Below are positions 11,171 to 29,475 of a DNA stretch of 64,000 nt, piece by piece. The first letter of the stretch is position 1. Every line of letters begins with the position of its first letter. The DNA lies in assembly GCF_039525035.1 (NCBI RefSeq), contig NZ_BAAAHE010000017.1:1-64000 (forward strand), read 5' to 3'. The position numbers were made by a program, and so were the translations under genes. Source of the DNA: Sporichthya brevicatena (GTDB lineage: Bacteria; Actinomycetota; Actinomycetes; Sporichthyales; Sporichthyaceae). A model generated the notes under the pieces. That model did not search any database and was not told the origin of the DNA. It worked only from the letters and a program-made list of their open reading frames with translations.

Positions 11171-11929
11171 TCATCGCGGCGCCATCCGGATCGCTCCGTC
11201 GAGCCGGATCGTCTCGCCATTGAGCATCGGGTTGTCGATGATCGCGAGCGCGAGCTTGGCGTACTCCTCGGGCGTGCCGAGGCGGCTCGGGTGCGGCACC
11301 GACTTCCCGAGGGAGGCTTTGACCTCTTCGGGCAGGCGCGCGAGCAGGGGCGTGTCGAACAGCCCGGGGGCGATGGTGCAGACCCGGATCTGCTTGGACG
11401 CCAGGTCGCGCGCCGCGACGATCGTCATGCCGACGATCCCGGCCTTGGACGAGGTGTAGGGGATCTGGCCGATCTGCCCCTCGTACGCGGCGACCGAGGC
11501 GGTGAGGATGCAGACGCCGCGCTCGCCGTCGACCGCCTCGGTGCGCGCCATCCGCGCCGCAGCCAGGCGCAGCACGTTGAACGAACCGATCAGGTTGACG
11601 TTCACGATCGCGGTGTAGGTCTCCAGCGAGCCGGGGCTGCCGTCCTTCTCCACGAGGCGAACGGGGCCGCCGCGGCCGGCGCAGTGCACGACCGCGCGCA
11701 ACGGGGCCTGCGCCTCAGCCGCGTCCAGCGCCGCCTCGACCTGCGCCGTGTCGGTGACGTCCGCGGGGGCGAACACGCCACCGATCTCGGCGGCGACCTC
11801 GGCCCCGGCCGAGGACGGCAGGTCGAGGATCGTCACCTTCGCGCCGGCCTTGGCCAGCGCGCGCGCCGTGCCGAGGCCGAGTCCGGACGCGCCGCCGGTG
11901 ACGAGCGCGGAGTTGCCGGCGATCTCCAT
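11171..11929 (-). CDS. SDR-family 3-hydroxyacyl-CoA dehydrogenase
   Basis: A 252-residue short-chain dehydrogenase. It has the NAD-binding TGGASGLGLGTA near the N-terminus and the catalytic block with Ser in LTASVAAYEGQ and YTSSK. The sequence resembles type II 3-hydroxyacyl-CoA dehydrogenases (HSD17B10-like; GERGVCILTASVAAYEGQIG). The expected role is oxidation of the 3-hydroxyacyl-CoA from the crotonase step, feeding the thiolase. ATG 11929 lies 5 bases after the thiolase stop. Confidence 0.92.
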   Translation of the reverse strand: MEIAGNSALVTGGASGLGLGTARALAKAGAKVTILDLPSSAGAEVAAEIGGVFAPADVTDTAQVEAALDAAEAQAPLRAVVHCAGRGGPVRLVEKDGSPGSLETYTAIVNVNLIGSFNVLRLAAARMARTEAVDGERGVCILTASVAAYEGQIGQIPYTSSKAGIVGMTIVAARDLASKQIRVCTIAPGLFDTPLLARLPEEVKASLGKSVPHPSRLGTPEEYAKLALAIIDNPMLNGETIRLDGAIRMAPR

Positions 11930-11934
11930 GGTGG

Positions 11935-13134
11935 TCAGAGCCTTTCGAGAATGGTGGCGTTGGCCATGCCGCCGGCCTCGCACATGGTCTGCAGGCCGAA
12001 GCGGCCGCCGGTGGCCTCGAGGTGGTTGAGCATGGTGGTCATCAGGCGGGCCCCGGACGCCCCGAGCGGGTGCCCGAGCGCGATCGCCCCACCGCGGGGG
12101 TTGAGCTTGGCCGGGTCGGCGCCGAAGTGCTCCGCCCACGCGAGCGGGACGGAGGCGAAGGCCTCGTTGACCTCGTAGTGGTCGATCTGATCGATCGTCA
12201 TGCCGGCGCGCTTGAGCGCCTTCTCCGTCGCCGGGATCGGGCCGGAGAGCATCGTGATCGGGTCGTCGGACGCGACCGCGAAGGCGTGGAACCGCGCCCG
12301 CGGCCGCAGCCCGAGGGCCGCGGCCCGCTCCGCGCTCATGATCAGCAGCGCCGCCGCGCCGTCGGTGATCTGCGAGGAGTTGCCGGCGGTGATCGACCAG
12401 GTGATCTCGGGGAAGCGTGCCGCCATGTCCGCGTTCTCGAAGGCGGGCTGAAGCGCCGCGAGCCCCTCCACCGTCGTCGAGGGGCGGATCGTCTCGTCCG
12501 CCGACACCACCCCGTCCGGGGTCGTGATCGGGACGATCTCGTTCGCGAACCCGCCGTTCGCGGCCGCGGCCGCGGCGCGGGCGTGCGAGGCGGCGGAGAA
12601 CTCGTCCAGCGTCGTGCGGTCCAGCTTCCACCGCGCCGCGACGAGCTCCGCCGAGATGCCCTGGGGGACCAGGCCCGGGGCGTAGCGCGCGGTGGCCGAG
12701 GGCCCGTAGACATCCGCGCCCTGCCGCGCCGATCCCATCGGCACCCGGCTCATCGACTCGACGCCACCGGCGACCACCACGTCGTAGGCGCCGGCGAGAA
12801 TCCCCTGCGCCGCGAAGTCCGCCGCCTGCTGGCTCGATCCGCAACGGCGGTCGACGGTCGTCGAGGGCACGTGCTCGGGCAGGCCCGCCGCCAGCCACGC
12901 CCACCGGCCGGGGCATCCGGCCTGCTCGGCGACCTGACTGACGCAGCCGACGATGAAGTCCTCGACGTCACCGGGATCGAGCGCCGGGTTGCGCTCCAGC
13001 AGTGCCTTCACGGTCTGTCCGAGGAGTTCGACCGGGTGCACGCCGGACAACGCCCCGCCGGGCTTGCCGTCGCGCGGCGCCTTGCCCTTCGCCATCGGCG
13101 ACCGCACCGCGTCGACGATCACTGCCTCATGCAT
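11935..13134 (-). CDS. Thiolase (acetyl-CoA C-acyltransferase)
   Basis: A 399-residue degradative thiolase which would split 3-ketoacyl-CoA with CoA. The nucleophilic Cys is Cys98 in VDRRCGSSQQ; the C-terminal active-site blocks are GGAIALGHPLGASGARL and TMCEAGGMANATIL. ATG 13134 (MHEAVIVDAVRSP) is preceded by AAGGGA, which overlaps the end of the acyl-CoA dehydrogenase gene. It lies in the middle of the beta-oxidation operon. Confidence 0.94.
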   Translation of the reverse strand: MHEAVIVDAVRSPMAKGKAPRDGKPGGALSGVHPVELLGQTVKALLERNPALDPGDVEDFIVGCVSQVAEQAGCPGRWAWLAAGLPEHVPSTTVDRRCGSSQQAADFAAQGILAGAYDVVVAGGVESMSRVPMGSARQGADVYGPSATARYAPGLVPQGISAELVAARWKLDRTTLDEFSAASHARAAAAAANGGFANEIVPITTPDGVVSADETIRPSTTVEGLAALQPAFENADMAARFPEITWSITAGNSSQITDGAAALLIMSAERAAALGLRPRARFHAFAVASDDPITMLSGPIPATEKALKRAGMTIDQIDHYEVNEAFASVPLAWAEHFGADPAKLNPRGGAIALGHPLGASGARLMTTMLNHLEATGGRFGLQTMCEAGGMANATILERL

Positions 13135-13144
13135 GACGATCCCT

Positions 13145-14272
13145 TCACAGCCCCATCGACTGACTGACAATCACTTTCATGATTTCGCTCGACCCACCGA
13201 AGATGCGGGACACCCGCGCGTCCGCGTAGGCGCGACCGAGGGGCGAGGAGCGACGCAACCCCGCCTCGCCCAGCACCTGCACGCACCGGTCCACCACCCG
13301 GCCCTGCGTCTCGGTGGCATGCAGCTTCACCATCGCCGCGTCCGCGGGCGAGAGCTCACCGGCCTCGTGCGCGGCCAGGGCCTGATCCACCAACGCCTGC
13401 CCGGCCGCGACCTCGGTCGCCGCCACGGCCAGCTCGAACTTCACCGGCTGCGCCGGCCGGCCCGGCTGCGCGCGCACGATCTCGACCGTCGCGCTCAGCG
13501 CCGCCGCCGCGGCGGCCTGGGAGTTGACCGCGATCGAGAGCCGTTCCTGCGCCAGGTTCGCCGTCAGATAGGCGAAGCCGTTGTTCTCCTCCCCGAGGAG
13601 GTTCGCCACCGGCACCTCGACGTCGTCGAAGAACAACTCCGCCAGGTCCTGGGCATGCAGCCCGACCTTCTCCAGCTTGCGCCCTCGGGAAAAGCCAGGC
13701 ATGCCCTCCTCGACCACGAGCAGGCTGATCCCGTCTCGGCCCGCGTCGCGATCGGTCTTCACCGCCAGCACGATCAGGTCGGCGTACATGCCGTTGGAGA
13801 TGAAGGTCTTCGCCCCGTTGACGACGTAGACATCGCCCTCCCGCCGGGCCGAGGTCGCCATCGCCTTCAGGTCCGAGCCCGCCCCGGGCTCGGACATCGC
13901 GATCGCGGTCAGCGCCTGCCCCGACGCGATGCGCGGGAGCCAGCGCTGCTTCTGCTCAACGTTCGTGCAGTGCAGGAAGTACGGCGCGCAGATGTCGACG
14001 TGCACGCGCACGCCGCTGATCGCCAGGCCGAGGGCCTGCGCCTCCTCGGCGAACACCGCGCTGTGCAGGTAGGAGGTGTCCGGCGTCCCGCCGTACTCGA
14101 CGGGGATCCCCACACCGAGGATTCCCGCGGCGCCCGCGCGCGGCCAGAAGTCCCGCGGCGGGGCACCGGCCTCCTCCCACGACGGGTACTCGGGCACGAC
14201 CTCCCGGAGCAGGAAGTCGCGCACCTCCTTGCGCCAGAGCTCGTGCCGGTCGGCGAAGACCGTCCTTCTCAC
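13145..14272 (-). CDS. Acyl-CoA dehydrogenase
   Basis: A 375-residue acyl-CoA dehydrogenase of normal length. Signature 1 AMSEPGAGSDL (residues about 126-136) and the C-terminal block YADARVSRIFGGSSEIMK are clear. The reading opens with GTG 14272 with only a poor RBS. The position where many members carry the catalytic Glu (YEGT) is FGG, as in members that use a Glu in an earlier loop. With the short dehydrogenase at 9341-10336 it may form a heteromeric enzyme. Confidence 0.93.
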   Translation of the reverse strand: MRRTVFADRHELWRKEVRDFLLREVVPEYPSWEEAGAPPRDFWPRAGAAGILGVGIPVEYGGTPDTSYLHSAVFAEEAQALGLAISGVRVHVDICAPYFLHCTNVEQKQRWLPRIASGQALTAIAMSEPGAGSDLKAMATSARREGDVYVVNGAKTFISNGMYADLIVLAVKTDRDAGRDGISLLVVEEGMPGFSRGRKLEKVGLHAQDLAELFFDDVEVPVANLLGEENNGFAYLTANLAQERLSIAVNSQAAAAAALSATVEIVRAQPGRPAQPVKFELAVAATEVAAGQALVDQALAAHEAGELSPADAAMVKLHATETQGRVVDRCVQVLGEAGLRRSSPLGRAYADARVSRIFGGSSEIMKVIVSQSMGL

Positions 14273-14284
14273 GCGAACCTGCGA

Positions 14285-15070
14285 CTACAGGCTCTTGCCG
14301 AGGGAACGCAGCGCGTCGGCGACCTCGTGCGGGTGCGTGAGCGCGACCGCGTGGGGCGCGCCCTCGACGATCGTGACGCCGCGGTTGTTCGGGAAGGCCT
14401 CGGCCATCGCGCGCGCACTGTCCACGGTGAAGGCGGCGTCGACGGTGCCGTGCACGACGATCACCGGGCAGGTGATGTCCTTCGCGCGGTCGGTGATGTC
14501 GTCGCGCTTGGTGAGGATGGTCGTCCAGACCTCCGACCACGCCGACGGCGGCTTGCCCTGCCAGGCGGCGCGGTAGCGCGAACCGTCGAAGGGGACGTCG
14601 GAGAACTGGATGCCGTAGATCGCGTCCGCGATCGGCCCGACCGGGCCCATGCCCAGCCACCCCTGCGAGAGCTGGGTGAACCCGGCGGTCTCCTGCTCGC
14701 TCAGCAGCGGCAGCGAGGTGCCGACCAGGCCGAGGCCGCGGACACGGTCCGGGCTCGCGAGTGCGGCGCGCTGGCTGATCCAGCCGCCCTGCGACATGCC
14801 GACGAAGACCGCGTTCGGCGCGCCGACCAGGTCGAGCAGGCCGACGGCGTCGGCCGCGAGGTCGTAGTAGTCGAACGGACCGTTGCACTCGCTCATGCCG
14901 TGCCCGCGCGCGTCCCAGGTGATGCAGCGGTACTCACCCGAGAGCAGGTCGACCACCGGCTGCCAGAGCGTGTGGTCGAGGAACGCACCGTGGGAGAAGA
15001 CGATCGTCTCCGGGCCGTCGCCGGTGACCTCGTAGTAGATCTGGTTGCCATTGAGCTCTGCGAACGGCAT
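14285..15070 (-). CDS. Alpha/beta hydrolase
   Basis: A 261-residue alpha/beta hydrolase with oxyanion region FSHGAFLDHTLW, nucleophile elbow GMSQGG and a C-terminal GAPHAVALTHP carrying the likely His. It is a paralogue of the hydrolase at 26942-27727 (shared ITWDARG and VFxGMSQGG patterns). Within the operon it may open a lactone or ester or cleave a carbon-carbon bond; the sequence does not decide. ATG 15070 has GGAGGAAC upstream. Confidence 0.9.
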   Translation of the reverse strand: MPFAELNGNQIYYEVTGDGPETIVFSHGAFLDHTLWQPVVDLLSGEYRCITWDARGHGMSECNGPFDYYDLAADAVGLLDLVGAPNAVFVGMSQGGWISQRAALASPDRVRGLGLVGTSLPLLSEQETAGFTQLSQGWLGMGPVGPIADAIYGIQFSDVPFDGSRYRAAWQGKPPSAWSEVWTTILTKRDDITDRAKDITCPVIVVHGTVDAAFTVDSARAMAEAFPNNRGVTIVEGAPHAVALTHPHEVADALRSLGKSL

Positions 15071-15122
15071 GGGTTCCTCCGATGACGGGTGGTCAGTTCG
15101 CGGGGGCTGTCGTGTGTGGGCG

Positions 15123-15911
15123 TCAGTGACCCTGGTAGATGCCGGGTCGGCGCTCGGTGAACGCGTCGATCGCCTCGAGCAGATCACGCGACGCCAGCGA
15201 TGTCTCCTCGTGCGCGAGCGAGAGTTCGACGACCTCGCCGGCGCGCAGCTGCGTGACGCGGTTCAGCGCGCGCTTGGTGCCCTGGACCGCCAGCGGGGGC
15301 AGTGCGGCGATGCGGGCGGCCAGCGCCTGCGCGGCGGGCAGCACGTCGTCGGGGGCGTCGACGAGGTCGGTGATCAGGCCCATGGCGTGCGCGGTCTCGG
15401 CGTCGACAGGGTCGCCGGTGAGCAGGTGGCGGCGCGCCCGGAGCATGCCGACGGCCTGCGGCCACACGAGACAGCCGCCGTCCCCGGCCACCAGCCCGAG
15501 CACCACGTGCGGGTCCGCGATCGTCGCCCCCCGTGCGGCGACGATCGCGTCCGCGGTGAGCACCACGGTGGCGCCCAGCCCGATCGCCGGACCCTGCATC
15601 GCCACGACCAGCGGTTGCGGCAGCGAGATCAGCGCGTCGAGGAGGCGGCGTCCGTCGTCGACGATCCGCAACCGCGTCGCGACATCGGCCTGGGCCGCGC
15701 GCATCAGGTCGAAGTCGCCGCCCGCGGAGAACACCGAGCCGGTGGACGCGAGGACGACGGCCCGCACCTTCTCGTCCCGCCGCAGCGATTCGAGCACCGC
15801 GGTGAACTCGACGTGGAGCTCGTCGTCGAAGCGGTTGAACAGCTCGGGCCGGGTCAGCGTGACCTCGGCGACGTGCCCGTCGACCCGAACGTCCAGGGCA
15901 GGTGTGGTCAC
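15123..15911 (-). CDS. Enoyl-CoA hydratase/isomerase (crotonase) family protein
   Basis: A 262-residue second crotonase of the operon, with VFSAGGDFDLMRAAQ and VAMQGPAIGLGATVVLTADAI as the two CoA/oxyanion segments. GTG 15911 (VTTPALDVRVDG) is preceded by GAAGGG. The gene follows the TetR gene on the same strand but has its own operator copy 36 bases upstream of its start, so it may begin a separately controlled transcript. Confidence 0.9.
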   Translation of the reverse strand: MTTPALDVRVDGHVAEVTLTRPELFNRFDDELHVEFTAVLESLRRDEKVRAVVLASTGSVFSAGGDFDLMRAAQADVATRLRIVDDGRRLLDALISLPQPLVVAMQGPAIGLGATVVLTADAIVAARGATIADPHVVLGLVAGDGGCLVWPQAVGMLRARRHLLTGDPVDAETAHAMGLITDLVDAPDDVLPAAQALAARIAALPPLAVQGTKRALNRVTQLRAGEVVELSLAHEETSLASRDLLEAIDAFTERRPGIYQGH

Positions 15912-15946
15912 CGCAAGACCCTTCGCTCCGATGCCGCGAGCTCTTT

Positions 15947-15965
15947 TTGAGCCCGGGCGTCTCAG
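15947..15965. promoter_or_regulatory. TetR-type operator upstream of the crotonase
   Basis: TTGAGCCCGGGCGTCTCAG is the most symmetric copy of the island palindrome (TGAG and CTCA arms, CG-rich centre). It lies between the TetR stop (15977) and the crotonase start (15911). On the minus strand ATTACT (15969-15964) could be the -10; I see no good -35. Confidence 0.55.
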
Positions 15966-15976
15966 TAATCCGGAGC

Positions 15977-16645
15977 TTAACGTTTCGGGTCGGACAGCAC
16001 AAGCCGCAGAGCGACGTCCGCGATGTGGCCGGCGTCGTGCGGCCCGCCCGGGCGAGCCCACCGCGCGACCCACGTCGTCATGCCCGTCACCAGGCGGGTG
16101 ACCAGACGCGGATCGTCGTCCGGCAGGTCCCCGTTGGCGATGGCCTCCTCGACGACCTTCAACCACAAACCCTCGTACCGTCGCCGCCAGGTCTTCCACT
16201 TCTCGTAGTCCTCGGCGGGCAGGTTGCCGCCGCCGAAGAACACGAGCAGGTAGTTGCGCTGCCGGAAGGCCGCGTCGATCTGGGCGCGGACGAGTTGCTC
16301 GACCCGCTCACGCGGCGTCAGGTCGGCGTTCTCCACGATCTCGAGCGCGGCGTCGTAGAGCTCGGTCGTCATCCGCTCGAAGAGGATGGCGAGCAGGTGC
16401 TCCTTCGACGGCACCGTCCGGTAGAGCGTCGCCCGCGACACCGTCAGGCGCTTGGCCGTCTCCTCTATCGAGACCGCCTCGTAGCCGCCCTCCTCGAAGA
16501 GTTCCTCGACGACGTCGGCGACCTGTTCGCGATCGATGCTGCGCCGCGGGCGCCCACGGCCCCGGCGCACGGGCGCGTCGCCGTCGCCCGCGACCTCCAC
16601 TGTTCCGGCGTCGTCCGCAGGTGCTTTCACGGTCCGGCGGCTCAC
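15977..16645 (-). CDS. TetR/AcrR-family transcriptional regulator, likely controller of the catabolic island
   Basis: A 222-residue regulator. After a disordered 30-residue N-terminus with an RGRGRPRR patch, the TetR helix-turn-helix is clear (SIEETAKRLTVSRATLYRTV, about residues 58-77), then a ligand-binding C-terminal domain. It starts at GTG 16645, 16 bases after the acyl-CoA ligase stop, so it is transcribed with the ADH-FadD genes whose promoter carries an operator copy: an autoregulated arrangement. The ligand is probably an acyl-CoA made by the neighbouring ligase, as for many TetR repressors of degradation genes; this is inference. Confidence 0.92.
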   Translation of the reverse strand: MSRRTVKAPADDAGTVEVAGDGDAPVRRGRGRPRRSIDREQVADVVEELFEEGGYEAVSIEETAKRLTVSRATLYRTVPSKEHLLAILFERMTTELYDAALEIVENADLTPRERVEQLVRAQIDAAFRQRNYLLVFFGGGNLPAEDYEKWKTWRRRYEGLWLKVVEEAIANGDLPDDDPRLVTRLVTGMTTWVARWARPGGPHDAGHIADVALRLVLSDPKR

Positions 16646-16661
16646 CGGACCACGGTAGCGC

Positions 16662-18455
16662 TCATCGGGGCTCGACCACCTCGACCACCCGGTCGGACGG
16701 AGGACCGTAGAGCAGCTCGATCTCCTTCGCGTACTTTTCCGCGATCGGCTTGCGCCGCAGCTTCATCGTCGGGGTGAGCTCGTCGGTGCCCGGCAACCAC
16801 GTCGACTCGACGAGAAGGAAGCGCCGGACCTGCTCCGCCGCGTTCAGATGCTCGTTCGCGGCCCGGATCCCGTCGCGGATTCGCTCGCGCACCAGAGGAT
16901 TCGCCGCATTCCGGGCCGGGTCCGCCTCGCCGGTCAGGGCCGCGGTGCCCTCCGGCTCCAGCGCGATCAGCGCGGTGACGTAGGGCCGCGCGTCGCCGAT
17001 GCACACGGCCGGTGCGATCAGCGGACAGTTCGCGACGAGGGTGTTCTCCACCAGGACCGGCGAGACGTTCTTGCCGGTCGACGAGACGAGGATCTCCTTC
17101 TTGCGGTCGACGATCCGGTAGTAGCCCGCCTCGTCCTGCACGAAGATGTCGCCCGTCCGCAGCCAACCGTCGGGGTCGAACGCCTCGGCGGTGAGGTCGG
17201 GTTTCCCGCGATAGCCCTTCATGACCATTGGGCCCTTGAGCAGCAACTCGCCGTCGTCGGCGATCCTGGCCTCGACGCCCGGCAGCGGCAGGCCGTTCGT
17301 CACCGGCCGGGCGGCGCCGGCCGGGTTGCACAGGATGATGCCCGCCGTCTCGCTCTGGCCGTAGCACTCGCACAGGTCCACCCCGATCGCGGCGAAGAAG
17401 CGCAGCGTCTCCGGCGGCAGCGGGGCGGCTCCGGTGAAGAGGAGCTCACCGGCCGCCAGCCCGAGAGTGCGACGGAGGCCGTCGAGCGCCTCGTCGTAGC
17501 TGAGCCACTCCCCGCGCAGCGCGGTGTCGACCTCCTTCCCGGCCAGCCGGTCGTCATGCAGCCGCAGTCCGAGCTCCAGGGCCTTCTCCAACTCGGCACG
17601 CTGGGGCGAGGCCTCGATCGCGGCGTGGGCCAGGCCCATCACGTAGTTCCAGATCCGTGGCACGGCCATGTAGAGCGTGGGCTGCAGCTCGGGCAGCAGC
17701 AGCGCCGCGGTCTTCGGGTTCAGGTGGTAGGTGATCGAGGACCCGCTGACGATCGGCATGTAGTACGCGCAGAGCCGGTCGCCCATGTGCGCGAACGGCA
17801 GGTACGACAGCGAACGGCCGCCCATCGGCAGCCGGCCGAGGGAGTGCAGGCCGCGGATCTGCTCCAGGATGTTGTCGTGCGTGAGCTCCGCGCCCTTCGG
17901 GACCCCGGTGGTGCCGGAGGTGTAGACGACGGTCAGCACGTCGTCGGCGGAAAGTTCCGGACGCGCCCCGGGCGCGAGCGGCTCACCCATCGACGTCAGC
18001 GTCGCCCAGTCGGGCTCGTCGCCCGTGCCGTCGATCACGACCAGCTTCGGTTTCCGTGAGGTTGCGGCGATGGCGGTGCGGGCCTTGTCCGCGAAGGCGG
18101 TTTCGGTCACCAGCACGTCGCAGCGGGCGTCGTCGAGCAGGTACGTCAGCTGCGAGGTGGCGGTGCTGTTGTAGAGCGAGACGGGCACCGCGCCGAGGTG
18201 CAGCGTCGCGAGGTCGGTGACCGCGGCCTGGTACCGGTTCGCCAGCATCATGCAGGTGGTGCCGCCGGTCGTGACGCCGAGCGCCGCCAGGCCGCCGGCG
18301 ACGCGGCGCACCTCGGCGTCCACCTGAGACCACGTCAGGGAGACGGAGCCGTCAGAGGCACGCATCGCCTCCTCGTCGGGCCGTTCCGCCACCGTGCAGG
18401 CGAACGCCTCGCACAGGTCGGTTGCCTGCAGGGCCGCGCCACTCGTCGTCGTCAT
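16662..18455 (-). CDS. AMP-dependent acyl-CoA ligase (FadD family)
   Basis: A 597-residue adenylate-forming enzyme that would activate a carboxylic acid with ATP and CoA. Motifs are VVYTSGTTGVPKGAELTH (P-loop-like), the aromatic-rich YGQSETAGIILC, GWLRTGDIFVQDEAGYY and the A10 lysine region near TPTMKLRRKPI. The length and YLPFAHMGDR resemble long-chain/bulky acid ligases. ATG 18455 overlaps the ADH stop as ATGA, and GGAGGAA precedes it. Confidence 0.94.
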   Translation of the reverse strand: MTTTSGAALQATDLCEAFACTVAERPDEEAMRASDGSVSLTWSQVDAEVRRVAGGLAALGVTTGGTTCMMLANRYQAAVTDLATLHLGAVPVSLYNSTATSQLTYLLDDARCDVLVTETAFADKARTAIAATSRKPKLVVIDGTGDEPDWATLTSMGEPLAPGARPELSADDVLTVVYTSGTTGVPKGAELTHDNILEQIRGLHSLGRLPMGGRSLSYLPFAHMGDRLCAYYMPIVSGSSITYHLNPKTAALLLPELQPTLYMAVPRIWNYVMGLAHAAIEASPQRAELEKALELGLRLHDDRLAGKEVDTALRGEWLSYDEALDGLRRTLGLAAGELLFTGAAPLPPETLRFFAAIGVDLCECYGQSETAGIILCNPAGAARPVTNGLPLPGVEARIADDGELLLKGPMVMKGYRGKPDLTAEAFDPDGWLRTGDIFVQDEAGYYRIVDRKKEILVSSTGKNVSPVLVENTLVANCPLIAPAVCIGDARPYVTALIALEPEGTAALTGEADPARNAANPLVRERIRDGIRAANEHLNAAEQVRRFLLVESTWLPGTDELTPTMKLRRKPIAEKYAKEIELLYGPPSDRVVEVVEPR

Positions 18456-19606
18456 GCCCGTTCCTCCGTCTCGAAGCTCGGCCCGTCCGGCGCCGGACCG
18501 AAAGTCACCACTGCGGAAACGACCTCGCCCGCGCTGACCGCGGCGAGGCCGTCGTTGATCTCGTCCAGGGAGAAGCTGCGGGTCACCAGCTCGTCGAGCA
18601 ACAGCGCACCGGTGCGGTAGTGCTCGACCAGGAGCGGGATGTCGCGGTGCACGTCGGCCGAGCCGAACAGGCAGCCCTTCAACGTCTTGGCGCTCCCGAC
18701 CAGGCCGGTGAACTGCGGGAGATTGATCCGGACGTCGGGTCCACCCGCGCCGACGAGGACGACCTCGCCGCCCTTGCCGGTCATCCGGATCGCCTGATCC
18801 ACGGTCAGCTGGAGGCCCGCCGCCTCGATCGTCGTGTCCGTCCCGCGGCCGGCCGTCAGGTCCTTGACCGCCGCCAGGACGTCGACCTCGCCGGCGGTGA
18901 GCGTGTCCGTGGCGCCCACCCGCCGCGCGAGATCGAGCTTTTCCGGCACCAGGTCGACGGCGAGAATGCGTTCAGCACCCGCGATCCGCGCGCCCTGAAT
19001 GGCCATCAGACCTACGCTGCCGCAGCCGATCACGGCCACCGTGCCGCCCGGACGGATCGCGGCGGTGTTCAGCGCCGCTCCGACTCCGGTGAGCACCGCG
19101 CACCCGAGCAGCGCGGCCGGTGCGAACGGCATGTCGGCGCCGATGCCGACGACGGAGATCGCGGGCACGACCACACGTTCGGCGAAGGTACCCGCCGCGA
19201 CGAACTGGGCGACGGCGACACCGTCGGCCGTGCGCCACCGCGTCGTGCCGTCCATCAGTGCCCCGGTCAGCAGGACGCCGTCACCCTGCTCGCAGAGGCC
19301 GGGCTGCCCCCGCGTGCAGCGGTAGCAGACCCCGCACTGCGGCATCGCGGCGACGGCGACGCGGTCCCCGACCGTGACGGTCTCGACGCCCGGCCCCACC
19401 GCCTCGACGACCCCGGCGGCCTCGTGGCCGAGCACGATCGGCAGCGGGCTCGGGAGCGCACCGTTGCGGACGGAGGCGTCCGAGGCGCAGATTCCGGCCG
19501 CCGCGATGCGGACCGCGACCTCACCCGCCCGCGGCGGTTCCAGGACGAGTTCGCGCACCTCGAGCGGCTTCTCCAGCTGCGCGCAGACCGCCGCCCGGAC
19601 CGCCAT
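18452..19606 (-). CDS. Zinc-dependent alcohol dehydrogenase (MDR family)
   Basis: A 384-residue medium-chain dehydrogenase. Catalytic zinc ligands are seen in GICASDAS and GHEAAGVVEAVG, the structural-zinc loop in CGVCYRCTRGQPGLCE, and the NAD fold in VIGCGSVGLMAIQGA. It resembles class III / NDMA-type alcohol dehydrogenases. In the operon it precedes the acyl-CoA ligase, so it may oxidise an alcohol released by ester hydrolysis to the aldehyde. No aldehyde dehydrogenase lies in the island. ATG 19606 starts the transcript controlled by the operator at 19630-19647. Confidence 0.92.
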   Translation of the reverse strand: MAVRAAVCAQLEKPLEVRELVLEPPRAGEVAVRIAAAGICASDASVRNGALPSPLPIVLGHEAAGVVEAVGPGVETVTVGDRVAVAAMPQCGVCYRCTRGQPGLCEQGDGVLLTGALMDGTTRWRTADGVAVAQFVAAGTFAERVVVPAISVVGIGADMPFAPAALLGCAVLTGVGAALNTAAIRPGGTVAVIGCGSVGLMAIQGARIAGAERILAVDLVPEKLDLARRVGATDTLTAGEVDVLAAVKDLTAGRGTDTTIEAAGLQLTVDQAIRMTGKGGEVVLVGAGGPDVRINLPQFTGLVGSAKTLKGCLFGSADVHRDIPLLVEHYRTGALLLDELVTRSFSLDEINDGLAAVSAGEVVSAVVTFGPAPDGPSFETEERA

Positions 19607-19629
19607 CTCGAGCCCTTCCCGACCATTTT

Positions 19630-19676
19630 TTGAACGAGGTATCTCAATACTTTCCCGCAGGTGGGCGGCACGTCAA
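19630..19676 (-). promoter_or_regulatory. ADH-FadD-TetR operon promoter with operator
   Basis: On the minus strand TTGACG (19676-19671), 18 bases, then AAGTAT (19652-19647) precede the ADH. The palindrome TTGAACGAGGTATCTCAA (19630-19647 on plus; one base shorter in the centre than its relatives) directly follows the -10. The site is about 90 bases from the divergent monooxygenase operator. Confidence 0.55.
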
Positions 19677-19702
19677 CGGCTGACGACGGCTCGAGTCCGC
19701 AC

Positions 19703-19748
19703 TTGACGCGGACCTCGGCCCGCCTATTATTGAGACGTGCCGAGTCAA
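19703..19748 (+). promoter_or_regulatory. Baeyer-Villiger operon promoter with operator; leaderless start
   Basis: TTGACG (19703-19708), 16 bases and TATTAT (19725-19730) form a near-consensus sigma-A promoter. The predicted start of transcription, seven bases after the -10, is G19737, which is also the first base of the GTG start codon; no RBS is present. The palindrome TTGAGACGTGCCGAGTCAA (19730-19748) covers the start site and first codons. Confidence 0.6.
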
Positions 19749-21725
19749 AAAAGATGGTCTGCCGACATCCGGTCGGCGGCCGTGCCCTTGCGCACCGAGA
19801 TCGGCGACGACGAGTTGCGCAGCGCACTGCAGGAAGCGAACCTCCCGACGCTGCTCGCCGCGCTGGCCCAGCTCACCGGGGACGACACCTGGCTGACCGG
19901 GAGGTACCGGCCGACGAGCCCCCTCGGCGTCGACGACCACGACTCGGCGGGCCTGACCCCCGAGCTCCAGGCGCAGGCACGCGCGGAGGCCTTCACGGTG
20001 CTCCGCGCCTGGCACGACGGCGAGTTCGAAGCCGCGCCACCACCCTCGCCGGAGCGCCTGACCGAGATGCTGCACGTCTCGCTCGGCTCGTCCCAGCAAC
20101 TGCCGGCCGACTTGGGCGGCCTGCTGGCCGAGGAGTTCGGCGTCGCCGACCGCGACCCGGTGCCCCCGCCGGGCATGACGATCCGTCACATCGAGGTGCT
20201 GGTGATCGGCGCCGGTCTGTCGGGGCTGTGCGCCGCGGTCAAGCTCAAGAGGGCCGGCATCGCCTTCACGATTCTCGACAAGAATCCGGCCGTCGGTGGC
20301 ACCTGGCTGGAGAACGTCTACCCCGCCTGCGGCGTCGACACCCCGAGCCACCTCTACTGCTACTCGTTCGCCCAGTCGCCCAGCTGGTCGCGGTACTTCG
20401 CCAAGCGCGACGAGCTCTACGGCTACCTCGAAGAGGTCGCCGACCACTACGACCTGCGTCGCCACATCCGGTTCGACTCCGAGGTCGAGACGATGAGCTG
20501 GGACGAGGACACGCAGCAGTGGCGCGTGACCGTTCGCAGCTCCGCCGGCGAGCGCGACACCCTCACTGCGAACGCGGTCATCAGCGGCGTCGGCCTGCTG
20601 AACCGGCCGTCGATCCCGGCGATCCCCGGGCTGGAGACGTTCGCCGGCCCGAGTATGCACACCGCGAACTGGGACACCTCGGTGGACGTGACCGGCAAGC
20701 GGGTCCTCGTCATCGGCACCGGCGCCAGCGCAATGCAACTCGTGCCGGCGATCGCGGGCACCGCTGCTCATGTGACGGTCTTTCAGCGTTCCCCTCAGTG
20801 GGGCCTGCCGAACCCCAACTACATGCGCGAGACCAGCGAGGCGACGCGGACGCTGATGGCGCACGTCCCGTTCTACCTGGGTTGGTACCGCCTGCGGCTG
20901 GTCTGGAACTTCGGCGACCGGCTCTACCCGGCGCTGCAGATCGACCCCGACTGGCCGCACCCGGAGCGCGCCGTCAACCGCAGCAACGACAAGCACCGCG
21001 AGTACCTCACGGAGTACATCCGCTCCGAGCTCGGCGACCGGCAGGACCTGCTTGACAAGTGCCTGCCGACCTACCCGCCGTACGGCAAGCGCCCGCTGCT
21101 GGACAACGGCTGGTTCCGCACGATGACCCGCGACGACGTGACGCTGTGCACGGACCCGGTCGTCGAGGTGCGGGAGCACAGCGTCGTCGATGCGAACGGC
21201 GTCGAGCACCCGGCGGACATCCTCGTGCTGGCCACGGGATTTCAGGCGGTGCGCGTGCTCGGTCCGATGGAGGTTCGCGGCCGGTCCGGCAAGAGCCTGC
21301 GCGAGGTCTGGGGCGAGGACGACGCCCGTGCCTACCTCGGCACCACCGTGCCGGACTTCCCCAACTTCTTCCTGCTGCTCGGCCCGAACACCTTCGCCGC
21401 GCACGGCGGCAGCGCGGCACTGACGATCGAGATGCAGGTCCGCTACGTCATGTCGTTGCTGCTGACGCTCGCGAGCGGCGAGACGAGCAGCATCGAGGTA
21501 CGGCAGGAGGTCTTCGAGGCCTACGACCGCCGGATCAGCGACGCGCTCACCCGCACGATCTGGTCACACCCGGGCATGACGACGTACTACCGGAACGCCG
21601 CCGGACGCATCGTGATCCCGATGCCCTGGACCAACGTCGAGTTCTGGCAGATGACGCACGACGTGAACCTCGACGACTTCCACCTCACGCCGGCCACGGA
21701 TCCGGCGCCGGTCCAGGCCGGCTGA
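19737..21725 (+). CDS. Flavin-containing Baeyer-Villiger monooxygenase (4-hydroxyacetophenone monooxygenase-like)
   Basis: A 662-residue FAD/NADPH enzyme that inserts oxygen next to a ketone to give an ester or lactone. The FAD Rossmann motif VIGAGLSGLC lies at about 157-166, GGTWLENVYPACGVD follows, the Baeyer-Villiger fingerprint FAGPSMHTANWD is at about 302-313, and the NADPH motif VLVIGTGASAMQ comes after it. The 150-residue N-terminal extension (IGDDELRSALQEANLPTLLAAL) is the hallmark of the HAPMO subgroup, which acts on aryl and some linear ketones. GTG 19737 fits the promoter as a leaderless start; GTG 19782 is the alternative. It is translationally linked to the hydrolase behind it. 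Confidence 0.94.
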   Translation: MPSQKRWSADIRSAAVPLRTEIGDDELRSALQEANLPTLLAALAQLTGDDTWLTGRYRPTSPLGVDDHDSAGLTPELQAQARAEAFTVLRAWHDGEFEAAPPPSPERLTEMLHVSLGSSQQLPADLGGLLAEEFGVADRDPVPPPGMTIRHIEVLVIGAGLSGLCAAVKLKRAGIAFTILDKNPAVGGTWLENVYPACGVDTPSHLYCYSFAQSPSWSRYFAKRDELYGYLEEVADHYDLRRHIRFDSEVETMSWDEDTQQWRVTVRSSAGERDTLTANAVISGVGLLNRPSIPAIPGLETFAGPSMHTANWDTSVDVTGKRVLVIGTGASAMQLVPAIAGTAAHVTVFQRSPQWGLPNPNYMRETSEATRTLMAHVPFYLGWYRLRLVWNFGDRLYPALQIDPDWPHPERAVNRSNDKHREYLTEYIRSELGDRQDLLDKCLPTYPPYGKRPLLDNGWFRTMTRDDVTLCTDPVVEVREHSVVDANGVEHPADILVLATGFQAVRVLGPMEVRGRSGKSLREVWGEDDARAYLGTTVPDFPNFFLLLGPNTFAAHGGSAALTIEMQVRYVMSLLLTLASGETSSIEVRQEVFEAYDRRISDALTRTIWSHPGMTTYYRNAAGRIVIPMPWTNVEFWQMTHDVNLDDFHLTPATDPAPVQAG

Positions 21726-21727
21726 CC

Positions 21728-22549
21728 GTGCCTCGCCTCGAGGTCGAACCCGGCGTCGAGATCCACGTCGAGGACCACCGGCCCGCGGAGGGCGCGGGCC
21801 GGCCGGTCCTGTTCGTCGCCGGCTTCGGTCTGCACTCCGACGCGTGGCAGGGTCAGGTCCATCCCCTCACCACCGCGGGCTACCGCGCCCTCGCCCTCGA
21901 CGTCCGGGGGACGGGTCAGTCGTCGAAGCCGTTGAACGACTACGGCATGGACCGACTCGCCGCCGACGTCGTCGCGGTGCTCGACCGTCTGGACCTGCGC
22001 CACGTCACGCTCGTCGGCTGGTCGTTCGGGGCACAGATCGCCATGCGCGCCGCGGTCACCGCGCCGGAGCGCCTGGCTCAACTGGTGTTCGTCGGCTCCA
22101 ACGCGGTGCGCGCGAGCGCGAGCGCGGAGTTCCCGTTCGGCGGGGACGCCGCGGACCTCGAGGCGCGGCTCGTCCGGCTGGAGCGGACCAAGCGCATCGA
22201 GACGCGGCGGCGCACGATCGCCTCCGCGTTCCGTGTCGAGCCCGACCCCGACGTGCTCGGCTGGCTGCTGCGCATGCAGCTGCAGATGCCGTCGTGGGCG
22301 GCGATCGCCTGCTACCGGACCTACCTGCACACGGACCAGATCGCGGACGTCGGGGCGCTCAAGCTCCCGGTTCTGCAGATCATGGGCGCCGTCGACCCGG
22401 TGTCCCCGATCGCGGGCGCGGCCTGGCTGCAGCAACGCCTGCCGGACGGCCGGCTGGTGGAACTCGACTGCGGGCACTACCCGATGCTCGAAGTTCCCGA
22501 GGCCTTCGACGAGACGCTGCTGACCTTCCTCGCCGAGGTCGAGACGTGA
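21728..22549 (+). CDS. Alpha/beta hydrolase, probable ester hydrolase partner of the monooxygenase
   Basis: A 273-residue alpha/beta hydrolase: oxyanion FVAGFGLHSDAW, nucleophile elbow GWSFGA, acid in MGAVDPVSP, His in DCGHYPMLE. GTG 21728 lies two bases after the monooxygenase stop. Pairing of a Baeyer-Villiger enzyme with a hydrolase is well known (the ester or lactone product is opened at once), so that role is proposed here. Confidence 0.9.
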   Translation: MPRLEVEPGVEIHVEDHRPAEGAGRPVLFVAGFGLHSDAWQGQVHPLTTAGYRALALDVRGTGQSSKPLNDYGMDRLAADVVAVLDRLDLRHVTLVGWSFGAQIAMRAAVTAPERLAQLVFVGSNAVRASASAEFPFGGDAADLEARLVRLERTKRIETRRRTIASAFRVEPDPDVLGWLLRMQLQMPSWAAIACYRTYLHTDQIADVGALKLPVLQIMGAVDPVSPIAGAAWLQQRLPDGRLVELDCGHYPMLEVPEAFDETLLTFLAEVET

Positions 22550-23373
22550 GCGCCCCGGTCACCACCGAGGAGCGCACGGTCCGGGCGGGCCGCCACGACC
22601 TGCGCGTCTCCGTCGCCGGGCCGGCGGAGAGCAGCGGCACGCCGTTGCTGCTCGTCAACGGGCTCGGCGGACACGTCCGGATGTGGGACCCGCTGCGCCG
22701 CCATCTGACGGGGATTCGGACGTTCGCCTTCGACGCCCCCGGAACCGGGGAGTCGCCCACCCCGACGCTTCCGCTCGGGATCGCCGGGTCGGCGCGGATG
22801 CTGACGAAGCTGATGGACGCCCTCGAGCTCGACCGGGTCGACGTCCTCGGCTACTCCCTCGGCGGGATGATCGCGCAACAGCTCGCGTGGACGTCGCCGC
22901 GACGGGTCCGTCGCGTGGTCCTGATGTCGACGAACACCGGGTGGGGCAGCATCCCCTCGCACCCGATCGCCTTCGCCGGTCTGCTCTCGATGCGGCGCCT
23001 GCGCGACCCCCAGCACTACGCCGCCCTGGCGCCGAAGCTGCTCGGCGGCGAGATGCGCCGCAACCCCGACCTCGTCCAGCAGGCCGCTGCGCTGCGGACG
23101 ACCGAGTCCCCCGACACCCGCGGCTACCTCTACCAGATGCTGGCGGTCACGACCTGGTCGACGATGCCGATGCTCCGCCTGATCCGGCAGCCGACGCTCG
23201 TCGTGAACGGCGACGACGACCCACTGGCCCGCCCGGTCAACGCGAAGGCGATCGCCGCGCTGATCCCCCACGCCGAACTGCACCTGGTGCGCGGCGCCGG
23301 GCACCATCTGTTCCTCGAACGTCCGGACGAGGTGAGCTCCGTGATCGACGACTTCCTGGCGGCGGGGCAATGA
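22546..23373 (+). CDS. phaZ: Intracellular poly(3-hydroxyalkanoate) depolymerase-like alpha/beta hydrolase (PhaZ)
   Basis: A 275-residue protein with the layout of medium-chain-length PHA depolymerases: LLLVNGLGGHVRMWDPL, lipase box GYSLGG, the PhaZ-type insert (DPQHYAALAPKLLGGEMRRNPDL), then QPTLVVNGDDDPL and the His in GAGHHLFLERP. The close likeness to Pseudomonas PhaZ in the last 130 residues and its position before phaC support the call. GTG 22546 overlaps the previous stop (GTGA). An alternative is a general esterase. Confidence 0.75.
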   Translation: MSAPVTTEERTVRAGRHDLRVSVAGPAESSGTPLLLVNGLGGHVRMWDPLRRHLTGIRTFAFDAPGTGESPTPTLPLGIAGSARMLTKLMDALELDRVDVLGYSLGGMIAQQLAWTSPRRVRRVVLMSTNTGWGSIPSHPIAFAGLLSMRRLRDPQHYAALAPKLLGGEMRRNPDLVQQAAALRTTESPDTRGYLYQMLAVTTWSTMPMLRLIRQPTLVVNGDDDPLARPVNAKAIAALIPHAELHLVRGAGHHLFLERPDEVSSVIDDFLAAGQ

Positions 23374-23612
23374 TCGGGCGCCGCCTGGAAGCGGCCCTCG
23401 GCACGCGCACCGCGACCGACCTGCTGCTGCGCGGCTTCCGGTTGCAGGGTTCGGTGACGCGCCTGGTCGAACGCCCGGCGGGCGCGGTGCTGCACGCGGT
23501 GAACCTGCCGACCCGGGGCGACGTCGCTGCCCTGCGCCGTCAGCTGGCGAGCACCCGTGAGGAACTGGCGGAGCTCTCGCGGCGGTTGGAGGACGGGGCG
23601 CCGCCGCGATGA
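23370..23612 (+). CDS. Small PhaE-like protein, candidate PHA synthase subunit
   Basis: An 80-residue protein linked by ATGA overlaps to both phaZ and phaC. Residues about 45-76 (NLPTRGDVAALRRQLASTRE and the following ELAELSRRLE) form a heptad-patterned coiled coil starting with LPTR. The end of class III PhaE subunits and of some phasins has the same form (LPTRxEVDxLxRRLxEL), and in that family this tail contacts PhaC. PhaE itself is about 350 residues, so this would be a minimal version. It could instead be a granule-binding phasin fragment. No other domain is visible. Confidence 0.6.
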   Translation: MIGRRLEAALGTRTATDLLLRGFRLQGSVTRLVERPAGAVLHAVNLPTRGDVAALRRQLASTREELAELSRRLEDGAPPR

Positions 23613-24691
23613 GCGCGGTCGGCCCGATCGCCTGGGTGACCCGAGAGGTCGGCCGCAGCGTCGGGCGGTTCCGCAACGGCGTCCGCTACCTCGCCGGGAC
23701 CGAGTTCGCGCCGATCGGTCCGACGCCGAGTCGCGTCGTGTGGCGGGAGGGCAAGGCGGAGCTGCGGCACTACAGCGGACACGGCCTGGGTCCCGAACCG
23801 CGGCTGGGTCCACCGGTCGTCGTGCTCGGTGGGCTGGTCGGACGGTCCTACATCTTCGACCTGCACACCGGGAACAGCTTCGTCGCGCGGATGCTCGAGG
23901 CGGGCTTCGACACCTTCGTGCTCGACTGGGGGATCCCGGACGCCGACGACTGCGCGAACACCCTGGAGACCTACCTGGCGCGGTACCTCCCCCGCGCCCT
24001 GCGCGCCGCACAGCGCGAGACCGGCAGCGCCGAGCTCAGCGTTCTCGGCTACTGCATGGGCGGCACCATGGCGCTGCAGGCGCTGGCCGCGGACCCCGCC
24101 GCGCCGGTGCGCAACCTCGTCGTCATCGCGACGCCGGTGGACTTCCGTCACCTCGGCGCGATGGTCGACGCCGTCGCCGAGCGTCGACTGGACCCCGCGA
24201 CCGTCCTCGACTCCGACGGGAACGTCCCGGCCGCGCTGATCGCGGCGTTCTTCTCCGTGCTCAAGCCGACCGCGCCGGTGGTCAAGTATTCGAATCTCTG
24301 GCAGAACCTTTGGAACGAGGAGTATCTGAAGGGTTATCAGGCCCTCAACCGGTGCTTCGAGCAGCACTCACCCCTGCCCGGTGGCTTCTTCCTCCAGATC
24401 GCCGATCAGTGGATACAGGCGAACGCGTTCGTCACCGACTCGCTGCGTCTCGACGGCCGCGCCGTCCACCTCGCGGACCTGACGATGCCCGTCCTGATCG
24501 TGACCGGCGACCGCGACGAACTCGTGCCCGCCGGCGCGACCGGCCCGCTCGCGGACCTGTTGACCGGCACGAAGCCCGAGACCCTCGAGCTCTCCGCCGG
24601 CCACGCCAGCCTGACCACCGGCCGCACCGCCGCCCGCCACACCGTGCCGCGGATCCTCGGCTGGCTCGCCGACCACAGCGACCCCCGCTGA
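23609..24691 (+). CDS. phaC: Class III poly(R)-hydroxyalkanoic acid synthase subunit PhaC
   Basis: A 360-residue PHA synthase of class III length. The lipase-like box GYCMGG places the nucleophile at Cys149, the same number as in the Allochromatium enzyme; the acid is in TGDRDELVP (Asp303) and the base in SAGHASL (His332). It polymerises 3-hydroxyacyl-CoA into polyester granules and in class III needs a PhaE partner, which the small gene before it may supply. It is the last gene of the monooxygenase operon and is followed by a strong hairpin terminator. Confidence 0.88.
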   Translation: MSAVGPIAWVTREVGRSVGRFRNGVRYLAGTEFAPIGPTPSRVVWREGKAELRHYSGHGLGPEPRLGPPVVVLGGLVGRSYIFDLHTGNSFVARMLEAGFDTFVLDWGIPDADDCANTLETYLARYLPRALRAAQRETGSAELSVLGYCMGGTMALQALAADPAAPVRNLVVIATPVDFRHLGAMVDAVAERRLDPATVLDSDGNVPAALIAAFFSVLKPTAPVVKYSNLWQNLWNEEYLKGYQALNRCFEQHSPLPGGFFLQIADQWIQANAFVTDSLRLDGRAVHLADLTMPVLIVTGDRDELVPAGATGPLADLLTGTKPETLELSAGHASLTTGRTAARHTVPRILGWLADHSDPR

Positions 24692-24713
24692 CCCCCGCTG
24701 ACCCCCTGTCGGA

Positions 24714-24757
24714 AAAGGGTGACACCCCTTACTCCGCAGTAAGGGGTGTCACCCTTT
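24714..24757. terminator. Long perfect hairpin terminator, repeat family copy
   Basis: Left arm AAAGGGTGACACCCCTTACT (24714-24733), loop CCGC, and a perfectly complementary right arm (24738-24757). It lies between convergent phaC and SDR genes. Each arm contains its own near-palindrome, and all 44 bases are identical to 60797-60840. Confidence 0.85.
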
Positions 24758-24812
24758 CTTGACCGCAGGTCGGCCGCCCCGTCGCCGACCGCGGTGTGGC
24801 GGTGTGCCGCGG

Positions 24813-25580
24813 TCAGGTCGTGTTGATCAGACCGCCGTCGACGAGCAGCGAGGAGCCGGTCATGTAGCGGGCGTGGTTGCTGCACAGCAGGGCGATCGCG
24901 TCACCGATCTCGTCGGGACCGGCGGGGCGGCCCATCGGGATCGGGAAGACCTGAGCCGCCATTTCGGCGGGGAGACCGAAGTCGCCGGTGACGAGTTCGG
25001 TCGTGATGACGCCGGGGTGGATCGCGTTGACCCGGATTCCCTTCGGCGCCAGGGCCTGCGCCGCGGAGTAGGTCATCAGCTTGATGGCGCCCTTCGAGCT
25101 GCTGTACGCCGCGACGCCGGCACTGCCCGCGAAGCCGAGGATGCTGGAGACGTTGACGATGACGCCGGCGCCCTTCTCGGCCATCTTCTTCGCCGCGGCC
25201 TGCGTGCCGAAGAACGCGCCCTTGGCGTTGGTGTCCATCTGGCGGTCGTAGTCCTCCTCGGTGATGTCGAGGAAGTCCTTCGGGATCACGATGCCGGCGT
25301 TGTTCACCATGATGTCGATGCCGCCGAACTCGTCGGCGGCGGCGACCGCCGCCTCGAGGTCCGCCGGCCGCGAGACGTCGCAGGAGACAAAGCGACCCTC
25401 GGCGCCGTGCTCGGCGACGGCCTCCTGGGTCGGGGTCCCACCCTCCCGCGGGTCCTTGCGGATGTCGGCCACCACGACGGCCTTCGCACCCTCGCGCGCG
25501 AGCGCGAGCGCAGCCGCACGTCCGATGCCGCTCGCCGCTCCGGTGACGACTGCGACCTTGCCCTCGACCAGTCCTGCCAT
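24813..25580 (-). CDS. SDR-family oxidoreductase
   Basis: A 255-residue classical short-chain dehydrogenase: TGAASGIGRA cofactor loop, NNAG, catalytic Ser in NVSSILGFAG and YSSSK, and PG in HPGVITTEL. FabG-like in form but with an Asp-type NAD pocket (VVVADIRKDP). Substrate unknown. It is divergent from a second SDR across a 93-base region with a palindromic operator, so the two are probably controlled together. Confidence 0.9.
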   Translation of the reverse strand: MAGLVEGKVAVVTGAASGIGRAAALALAREGAKAVVVADIRKDPREGGTPTQEAVAEHGAEGRFVSCDVSRPADLEAAVAAADEFGGIDIMVNNAGIVIPKDFLDITEEDYDRQMDTNAKGAFFGTQAAAKKMAEKGAGVIVNVSSILGFAGSAGVAAYSSSKGAIKLMTYSAAQALAPKGIRVNAIHPGVITTELVTGDFGLPAEMAAQVFPIPMGRPAGPDEIGDAIALLCSNHARYMTGSSLLVDGGLINTT

Positions 25581-26463: not shown

Positions 26464-26778
26464 TCAGTGCGCCAGCTTGAGCCCCACGACCCCGGCGACG
26501 ATCGCGAGCAGGCAGAGGATCCGGGCGAGGGACGCCGGCTCGTCGAGGGCGACCATGCCGTAGAGCGCGGTGCCGGTCGCGCCGATGCCCACCCACACCG
26601 CGTAACCGGTGCCGACGGGCAAGGTGCGCAGCGCGTAGGCCAGGCCGATCATGCTGAGCACCACGGCGACGGCGAACAGCACCGACGGCCCGAGGCGGGT
26701 CAGGCCACGGGACTGGGCGAGCGCCGAGGCCCAGACGGCTTCGAGCAGCCCGGAGATCACGAGAACGAACCACGCCAT
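26464..26778 (-). CDS. SMR-family exporter, probable guanidinium exporter (Gdx/SugE type)
   Basis: A 104-residue, four-helix small multidrug resistance protein. Glu13 in SGLLEAVWA is the conserved proton/substrate residue, and the W-A-x-x-L-x-x-S-x-G-x-T pattern after it matches the Gdx (SugE) branch, which exports guanidinium rather than drugs. The guanidine-III riboswitch directly upstream supports that function strongly. ATG 26778 has GGAGG upstream. Confidence 0.9.
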   Translation of the reverse strand: MAWFVLVISGLLEAVWASALAQSRGLTRLGPSVLFAVAVVLSMIGLAYALRTLPVGTGYAVWVGIGATGTALYGMVALDEPASLARILCLLAIVAGVVGLKLAH

Positions 26779-26796
26779 GACGCACCTCCGCGGTGG

Positions 26797-26835
26797 GCGT
26801 CGTCTTGTCGTGCCGGGTACGACGCACTCGTCCGG
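26797..26835 (-). promoter_or_regulatory. Guanidine-III (ykkC-III) riboswitch
   Basis: In the leader of the SMR gene the RNA begins CCGGACGAG (26835-26827), continues with GTACCCGG (26820-26813) and ends GACAAGACGACGC (26809-26797). The order, spacing and bases match the roughly 40-base ykkC-III consensus known from actinobacteria. The 3' part sits just before the RBS, fitting translational control by free guanidine. Confidence 0.85.
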
Positions 26836-26941
26836 GGAGGCCGCGGCTGCGGCTCCGCCTTCAGGGTAGACGACCCGGCCGCCGCGGACCTTCTGCCGGC
26901 GACCTCCCGCCGGTAGCGTGCGCGCAGCGGAGGAGGCCCCC

Positions 26942-27727
26942 ATGGCGTACGCGGACATCAACGGGCAGCGCATCTTCTACACCGACAGCGGTGGCGACGG
27001 GCCCCCGGTCGTGTTCTCGCACGGCTTTCTGATGGACTCCTCGATGTTCGCGCCCCAGGTGGCGGCGCTCGCCGGCGAGTTCCGGGTGATCACCTGGGAC
27101 GCCCGCGGGTTCGGGGCCACCGAGTTCGACGAGAAGCCCTTCACCTACTGGGACAACGCGAGCGACGTCCTCGCGCTCTGCGACCACCTGGGCATCGAGC
27201 GCGCGGTGTTCGCCGGAATGTCCCAGGGCGGGTTCGCCTCGCTGCGCGTCGCCCTCCTCGCGCCGGAACGCAGGCGCGGCCTGATCCTGATCGACACTCA
27301 GGCGGGCGCCGAGAATCCGGACAAGGTCGACCTCTACGCCGACCTGATCGAGGCGTGGGCGACGGTCGGTCCCGGCGACGACCTCGCGAACATCGTCGCC
27401 GGGATCATCCTCGACGACCCCGACCTCAACAGGCAGTGGATCGCGCGCTGGCAGTCCCGGCCGCACGAGACGATCCGCGAACCCGGCCGTTGCCTGCTCG
27501 AGCGCGAGAGCCTCGTCGACCGCCTCGGGGACATCACCTGTCCGGCACTGGTGATCCACGGCGACAACGACTCGGCGATCGAGCTCGAGCGCGCGGAGGA
27601 GATGAGCGCGCGACTGTCGGGGAGCGACGGCGTGGTCGTCGTCCGCGGCGGAGCGCACGCCGCGAACCTGACCCACCCCGAGCCGGTGAACGCGGCGATC
27701 CTCAAGTTCCTGCGTTCGCTGTCCTGA
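26942..27727 (+). CDS. Alpha/beta hydrolase
   Basis: A 261-residue hydrolase: FSHGFLMDSSMF oxyanion region, ITWDARGFG, nucleophile elbow GMSQGG, Asp in HGDNDSAIE, His in GAHAANLTHP. It is a paralogue of the hydrolase at 14285-15070. ATG 26942 follows GGAGGAGG. It is divergent from the SMR gene and overlaps the end of the permease gene tail to tail by 26 bases. Substrate not evident. Confidence 0.88.
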   Translation: MAYADINGQRIFYTDSGGDGPPVVFSHGFLMDSSMFAPQVAALAGEFRVITWDARGFGATEFDEKPFTYWDNASDVLALCDHLGIERAVFAGMSQGGFASLRVALLAPERRRGLILIDTQAGAENPDKVDLYADLIEAWATVGPGDDLANIVAGIILDDPDLNRQWIARWQSRPHETIREPGRCLLERESLVDRLGDITCPALVIHGDNDSAIELERAEEMSARLSGSDGVVVVRGGAHAANLTHPEPVNAAILKFLRSLS

Positions 27728-29453: not shown

Positions 29454-29475
29454 GGGCAGTCCTCCTGAGGGGCCG

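Follow-up and report, generated by a model that had tools for sequence, protein, structure and literature searches.

Why the genes for building and breaking down a storage polyester should stand directly behind a gene for the oxidation of ketones is the question raised by a locus of the actinomycete Sporichthya brevicatena. Polyhydroxyalkanoate (PHA) genes usually accompany their own supply genes or regulators. In the stretch considered here, positions 1 to 64,000 of contig NZ_BAAAHE010000017.1 (contig C17 of the high-GC, 5.2 Mb genome GCF_039525035.1; hereafter the window), the plus strand at 19737-24691 carries, head to tail, genes for a type I Baeyer-Villiger monooxygenase (BVMO), an alpha/beta hydrolase (HYD1), a PhaZ-like depolymerase, an 80-amino-acid PhaE/PhaR-like protein and a class III-like PHA synthase, PhaC. 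The reading favoured here, to which we give a probability of roughly 0.6, is that an actinobacterial ketone-catabolism island recruited phaZ-E-C under the BVMO promoter, and that this happened in Sporichthya only. The locus combines familiar parts in a new arrangement, one of them unusual (the miniature PhaE/PhaR), and is no new kind of system.

The plus-strand operon and its products

The elements of the operon are the following.

19703-19730, plus strand: promoter TTGACG-16-TATTAT, the sole sigma70-like match in 19500-25000
19737-21725, plus strand: type I BVMO of the HAPMO type with N-terminal extension (Pfam FMO-like and further domains, matches to BVMOs in the PDB)
21728-22549, plus strand: alpha/beta hydrolase HYD1 (Abhydrolase_1; best NCBIfam model PcaD-type, below its cut-off)
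22546-23373, plus strand: PhaZ-like candidate intracellular PHA depolymerase (TIGR02240, 165 bits)
23370-23612, plus strand: 80-amino-acid PhaE/PhaR-like small subunit (profile of small proteins, LP[TS]RxD motif alignment)
23609-24691, plus strand: class III-like PHA synthase PhaC (TIGR01836, catalytic triad, fold)
24714-24757, no strand assigned: palindrome after phaC, with a perfect 20-bp stem and a 4-nt loop (-45.4 kcal/mol folded with flanks)

A gap of 2 nt separates the BVMO and HYD1 genes and the next three joints are 4-bp ATGA/GTGA stop-start overlaps; the joints in a second Sporichthya species (G001) are identical and those in a third (G002) nearly so. All three species preserve the five reading frames in the same order, with proteins 70-98% identical, which is more than chance would give. 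Within 19500-25000 the sigma70-like scan gave a single match, with 0.2 expected in shuffles, and apart from this BVMO promoter no independent phaC promoter. TTGAC and TATTATTGAGACGTG of the BVMO promoter show no variation across five genomes from two genera, and since the GTG start of the BVMO gene lies only 6 nt past the -10 element, the message is probably leaderless. On the opposite side of the intergenic gap an inverted partner, TCTCAATA, stands near the start of an alcohol dehydrogenase (ADH) gene in the Sporichthya genomes, and CGTCAACG, which reads TTGACG on the minus strand, does not vary among the five genomes, so that two divergent promoters are likely between the BVMO and ADH genes. 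Two weak terminator-like matches within phaC (24230 and 24368) are at about chance level, and the palindrome after phaC is a probable two-way terminator between convergent genes. Genes on the same strand that overlap, one promoter and a strong terminator at the end only support the placement of the PHA genes in the monooxygenase operon, apparently under the BVMO promoter. A preliminary description of the window had proposed just such a common transcript, and had named independent regulation of phaC as what would speak against it; the promoter scan gives no sign of the latter.

The monooxygenase translation contains the two Rossmann motifs GAGLSG and GTGASA and the BVMO fingerprint FxGxxxHxxxW[P/D], in the form FAGPSMHTANWD. 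Its flavoprotein domains begin at residue ~152 after an N-terminal extension of ~150 amino acids, and HAPMO equally has an N-terminal extension ahead of its first Rossmann fold (PMC10028610, PMC5407406). Its orthologues are 93/83/76/75% identical. The gene list of the preliminary description is correct, the HAPMO-like monooxygenase and the hydrolase behind it included. By its family, the BVMO would convert a ketone to an ester or lactone, and HYD1, whose gene the sister genus also keeps in the BVMO operon, is a probable ester/lactone hydrolase acting on that product. Such a beginning has precedents in acpAB of Rhodococcus strain GD02, where a BVMO-esterase start of acetophenone catabolism has been proposed (PMC9618137), and in the HAPMO pathway of Pseudomonas fluorescens ACB, both leading with a BVMO and an esterase from ketone to ester to alcohol and acid; PHA genes are undescribed in either, whereas the Sporichthya locus has phaZ-E-C in the operon and a divergent beta-oxidation unit.

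The names of the three PHA proteins stand in part, and are kept here as 'like' because all three score below the curated NCBIfam cut-offs. The PhaZ-like hydrolase reaches 165 bits against TIGR02240 (cut-off 250.6), which is nevertheless its best family and matched over nearly the full length, and it is 40-41% identical to the PhaZ adjoining PhaC in G003, a genome of the sister genus. PhaC scores 226 bits against TIGR01836, about 140 below the class III cut-off of 365.3. In its favour, the triad C149/D303/H332 is invariant in 11 of 11 aligned sequences, the nucleophile motif G-Y-C-M-G-G presents the catalytic Cys and not Ser, and the predicted model (pLDDT 85.5) has the fold of a PHA synthase, with the synthases of Aeromonas, Chromobacterium and Cupriavidus as top matches. 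An 81% identical PhaC is found in a Sporichthya metagenome-assembled genome whose locus equals that of G002. As an observation apart, a long open frame at L002 (G000:C2:120478-121431) opens with a PhaC-like domain whose catalytic Cys is replaced by Ser (GYSQGG), and for this reason the product is probably no polymer synthase.

The 80-amino-acid protein matches the PhaE model TIGR01834 with 16.4 bits (cut-off 154.95) and only over its last ~37 positions, the C-terminal part. A profile built from three small proteins was run on 68 phaC loci with 13,510 open reading frames, and in 64 of the 68 the best match was the frame immediately upstream of phaC; the matches extend over Bacillota, Rubrobacter, Chloroflexota and haloarchaea, and two of the four exceptions (L070 and L073) directly precede a second phaC-like match. 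The alignment gives a common core of LP[TS]RxD[IV] or near. A homologous small protein is thus encoded directly upstream of phaC, and there is good evidence from these comparisons that it is a stripped, unusually small PhaE/PhaR homologue, which may activate PhaC. With class III (PhaE-PhaC) and class IV (PhaR-PhaC) synthases the Sporichthya pair has in common the triad and fold of PhaC, the upstream partner gene and LP[TS]RxD; unlike them, its partner has 80 amino acids, whereas the open reading frames that precede phaC in the compared loci have roughly 130-500 codons.

These proteins might alternatively make no storage polymer at all, PhaC being a catabolic acyltransferase or hydrolase that acts on BVMO-derived hydroxy acids or esters. 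The low family scores of all three proteins would fit, as would the alpha/beta-hydrolase fold of PhaC and its position next to two further hydrolases of this fold. A catalytic Cys within a full triad, the retained PhaE/PhaR-like partner and the company of related actinobacterial PhaE-PhaC pairs, which are accompanied by PhaZ and short-chain dehydrogenase (SDR) genes and not by BVMOs, argue for a synthase instead, and we consider the catabolic role improbable.

Distribution and origin of the linkage

Five genomes of the family were compared, three Sporichthya species (the window, G001 and G002) and two genomes of a sister genus (G003 and G004). The order BVMO-HYD1-phaZ-E-C occurs in three of the three former and in neither of the latter. 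Both sister-genus genomes keep the BVMO (75-76%), HYD1, the divergent unit (thiolase 84-85%) and the same promoter sequence, with the operon order BVMO, acyl-CoA dehydrogenase, HYD1, and phaZ, phaE and phaC are absent from the island in both. As an SDR gene past phaC (24813-25580) is kept in the sister genus as well, the pha block forms a clean difference between two conserved borders.

Further away, no BVMO was found near class III-like phaC in 79 other loci of GTDB species (within the extent of the contig, up to 10-kb flanks), and no class III phaC, the only class used as query, near BVMO in 27 BVMO loci. Among 48 stretches around actinomycete phaC genes, G097 alone has an FMO-type gene nearby (L147). 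Between this gene and a distant PhaC-like gene 3.5 kb further on lie a helix-turn-helix protein, an SDR-like stretch and a pirin; no PhaE was found there, and the case was judged unrelated. The plasmid search returned no close PhaC (best 33%), and pha genes are absent in both of the plasmid neighbourhoods of BVMO relatives that were examined. The papers returned by literature searches, with subscription journals mostly outside coverage, mention in their titles and abstracts no operon joining a Baeyer-Villiger monooxygenase with a PHA synthase. The linkage is seen only in Sporichthya: kept in three of three species and neither in the sister genus nor beyond, it is a real coupling at the level of the genus and not a widely conserved pathway. 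The coupling is as rare as the preliminary description had supposed; of the conservation among relatives on which that description had staked its reading, the part within the genus holds and the part beyond it does not.

The PHA module, on the other hand, is also found as a unit at another place in the family: G003 has an unlinked cluster SDR-X-PhaE-PhaC-GNAT-PhaZ, and its PhaC groups as sister to that of the operon (support 100/99). G001 has, elsewhere in its genome, a second PhaC (43% identical) with its own small PhaE. Free-standing actinomycete clusters of this type (G003, the second copy of G001, G126 and G013) resemble the operon in a short PhaE-like protein and a PhaC 38-49% identical, and several have SDR or PhaZ-like genes nearby; unlike the operon, none is linked to a BVMO. 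Contig C7 of the host also encodes a class I PhaC and a PhaZ-like protein, so that the pha set of the operon is an addition.

The island, equally, has relatives without the PHA genes. Plasmid pRZP2 of Rhodococcus sp. ZPP (L192) has a related BVMO along with a beta-oxidation core, as in part does G047. The pRZP2 proteins are 55% (BVMO), 73% (thiolase), 73% (SDR), 68% (enoyl-CoA hydratase), 61% (acyl-CoA dehydrogenase) and 49% (TetR) identical; in contrast to Sporichthya, this island has a carotenoid oxygenase, a P450 and an aldehyde dehydrogenase instead of ADH and HYD1. Within the beta-oxidation island its carotenoid oxygenase gene (10079-11575 of L192) is divergent to the BVMO gene, a hint that the substrate class of that island may be apocarotenoid-type ketones. 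Because the outgroup BVMO loci (pRZP2, G047 and G034) are all without pha genes, the simpler history has Sporichthya gain them, and this gain looks recent. The opposite history, an ancestral linkage lost in the sister genus, could draw on the sister relation of the operon PhaC to that of G003, which makes the gene as such an old one in the family, but the three remoter loci without pha would then require several losses, and we hold this history to be very improbable indeed.

A gain may still be without metabolic meaning, if a rearrangement placed general PHA genes behind the ketone operon by accident. Confinement to one genus agrees with such an accident, and the palindrome after phaC, being a dispersed repeat, could have aided it: the same palindrome (GGGTGACACCCCTTACT ... 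AGTAAGGGGTGTCACCC) recurs at about 60800-60840 of the window, its half-sites number 113/110 in the host genome, 88/91 in G001 and one in G002, with none in G003, the sole sister-genus genome searched, and it appears to be a REP-like or terminator repeat particular to the genus. Yet the order and tight overlaps have been kept although the proteins of the window and of G002 are only 70-83% identical, and the host possesses, at another place, a class I phaC and a phaZ-like gene of its own; incidental placement is in our view unlikely.

The divergent unit and the proposed working

Divergent from the BVMO gene across 130 bp lies a minus-strand catabolic unit at 9341-19606.

18452-19606, minus strand: zinc alcohol dehydrogenase, first gene of the unit (TIGR03989 343.7 bits, cut-off 440)
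16662-18455, minus strand: FadD11-like acyl-CoA ligase (AMP-binding; NF038343 507 bits, cut-off 950)
15977-16645, minus strand: TetR-family regulator within the unit (TetR_N, TetR_C_24; 80-81% in the sister genus)
15123-15911, minus strand: second enoyl-CoA hydratase (82% sister genus, 68% pRZP2)
14285-15187, minus strand: alpha/beta hydrolase HYDm, start codon uncertain
13145-14272, minus strand: acyl-CoA dehydrogenase (77% sister genus, 61% pRZP2)
11935-13170, minus strand: thiolase (TIGR01930 above cut-off; 85% sister genus, 73% pRZP2)
11171-11962, minus strand: SDR, probable 3-hydroxyacyl-CoA dehydrogenase (88% sister genus, 73% pRZP2)
10333-11220, minus strand: enoyl-CoA hydratase (ECH_1; 84% sister genus)
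9341-10309, minus strand: second acyl-CoA dehydrogenase (Acyl-CoA_dh_1; 55% sister genus)

A domainless open reading frame at 15184-16002 was rejected as a wrong frame, the true gene being the enoyl-CoA hydratase at 15123-15911. Neither an aldehyde dehydrogenase nor an (R)-specific hydratase was found among the island genes scanned. The preliminary description had set ADH and ligase back to back with the monooxygenase; they do belong to the same island, but not to the same transcript, because they lie divergent on the minus strand. Its full beta-oxidation set exists as well, though outside the 18452-24691 to which it had been assigned, at 9341-15911 on the minus strand. A P450 and a luciferase-like monooxygenase (6566-9301) flank the island, the latter adjoining it in G004 too (89%). 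Elsewhere in the window there are a small multidrug resistance-type gene (26464-26973) and a row of three genes for periplasmic binding proteins (Peripla_BP_2; 28398-31742, minus strand).

From these genes a working can be proposed, with the 'ketone to storage polymer' of the preliminary description as a putative flux only. The ester or lactone made by the BVMO would be cleaved by HYD1 to an alcohol or hydroxy acid and an acid; in the divergent unit the alcohol would be oxidised by ADH and the acid activated by the ligase to its CoA form, with beta-oxidation to acetyl-CoA. PhaC with its small partner would polymerise (R)-hydroxyacyl-CoA drawn from that pool, and the PhaZ-like hydrolase would release the polymer again. 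The TetR protein may act on the divergent promoters, and capacity for storage polymer would rise when the ketone pathway is switched on, probably through TetR release. The (R)-monomers could come from the products of MaoC-domain genes elsewhere in the host genome (17 matches) and from its many acetoacetyl-CoA-reductase-like SDRs.

Several points weigh against recruitment for this purpose. The operon is without PhaJ or another (R)-hydratase and without a proven PhaB, the route of the island ends in acetyl-CoA through beta-oxidation, and the cut-offs missed by PhaC, PhaZ and PhaE count here as well; with five family genomes compared, a loss in the sister genus keeps a small probability. A more direct coupling, in which PhaC and a minimal 80-amino-acid PhaE/PhaR core would polymerise hydroxyacyl-CoAs made straight from the products of the Baeyer-Villiger reaction, such as omega-hydroxyacyl-CoA from lactones, into an unusual natural polyester, is to be regarded as distinctly improbable.

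With the proposed recruitment of phaZ-E-C into the ketone operon, polymer synthesis, polymer release and ketone oxidation apparently stand under one promoter in one genus. The sister genus provides a natural 'before' state with the same locus and the same promoter, and the pair lets the wiring of carbon storage to one catabolic route be tested. Furthermore, the 80-amino-acid protein, as a candidate minimal PhaE/PhaR subunit that still works, could help to define what PhaC needs of its partner.

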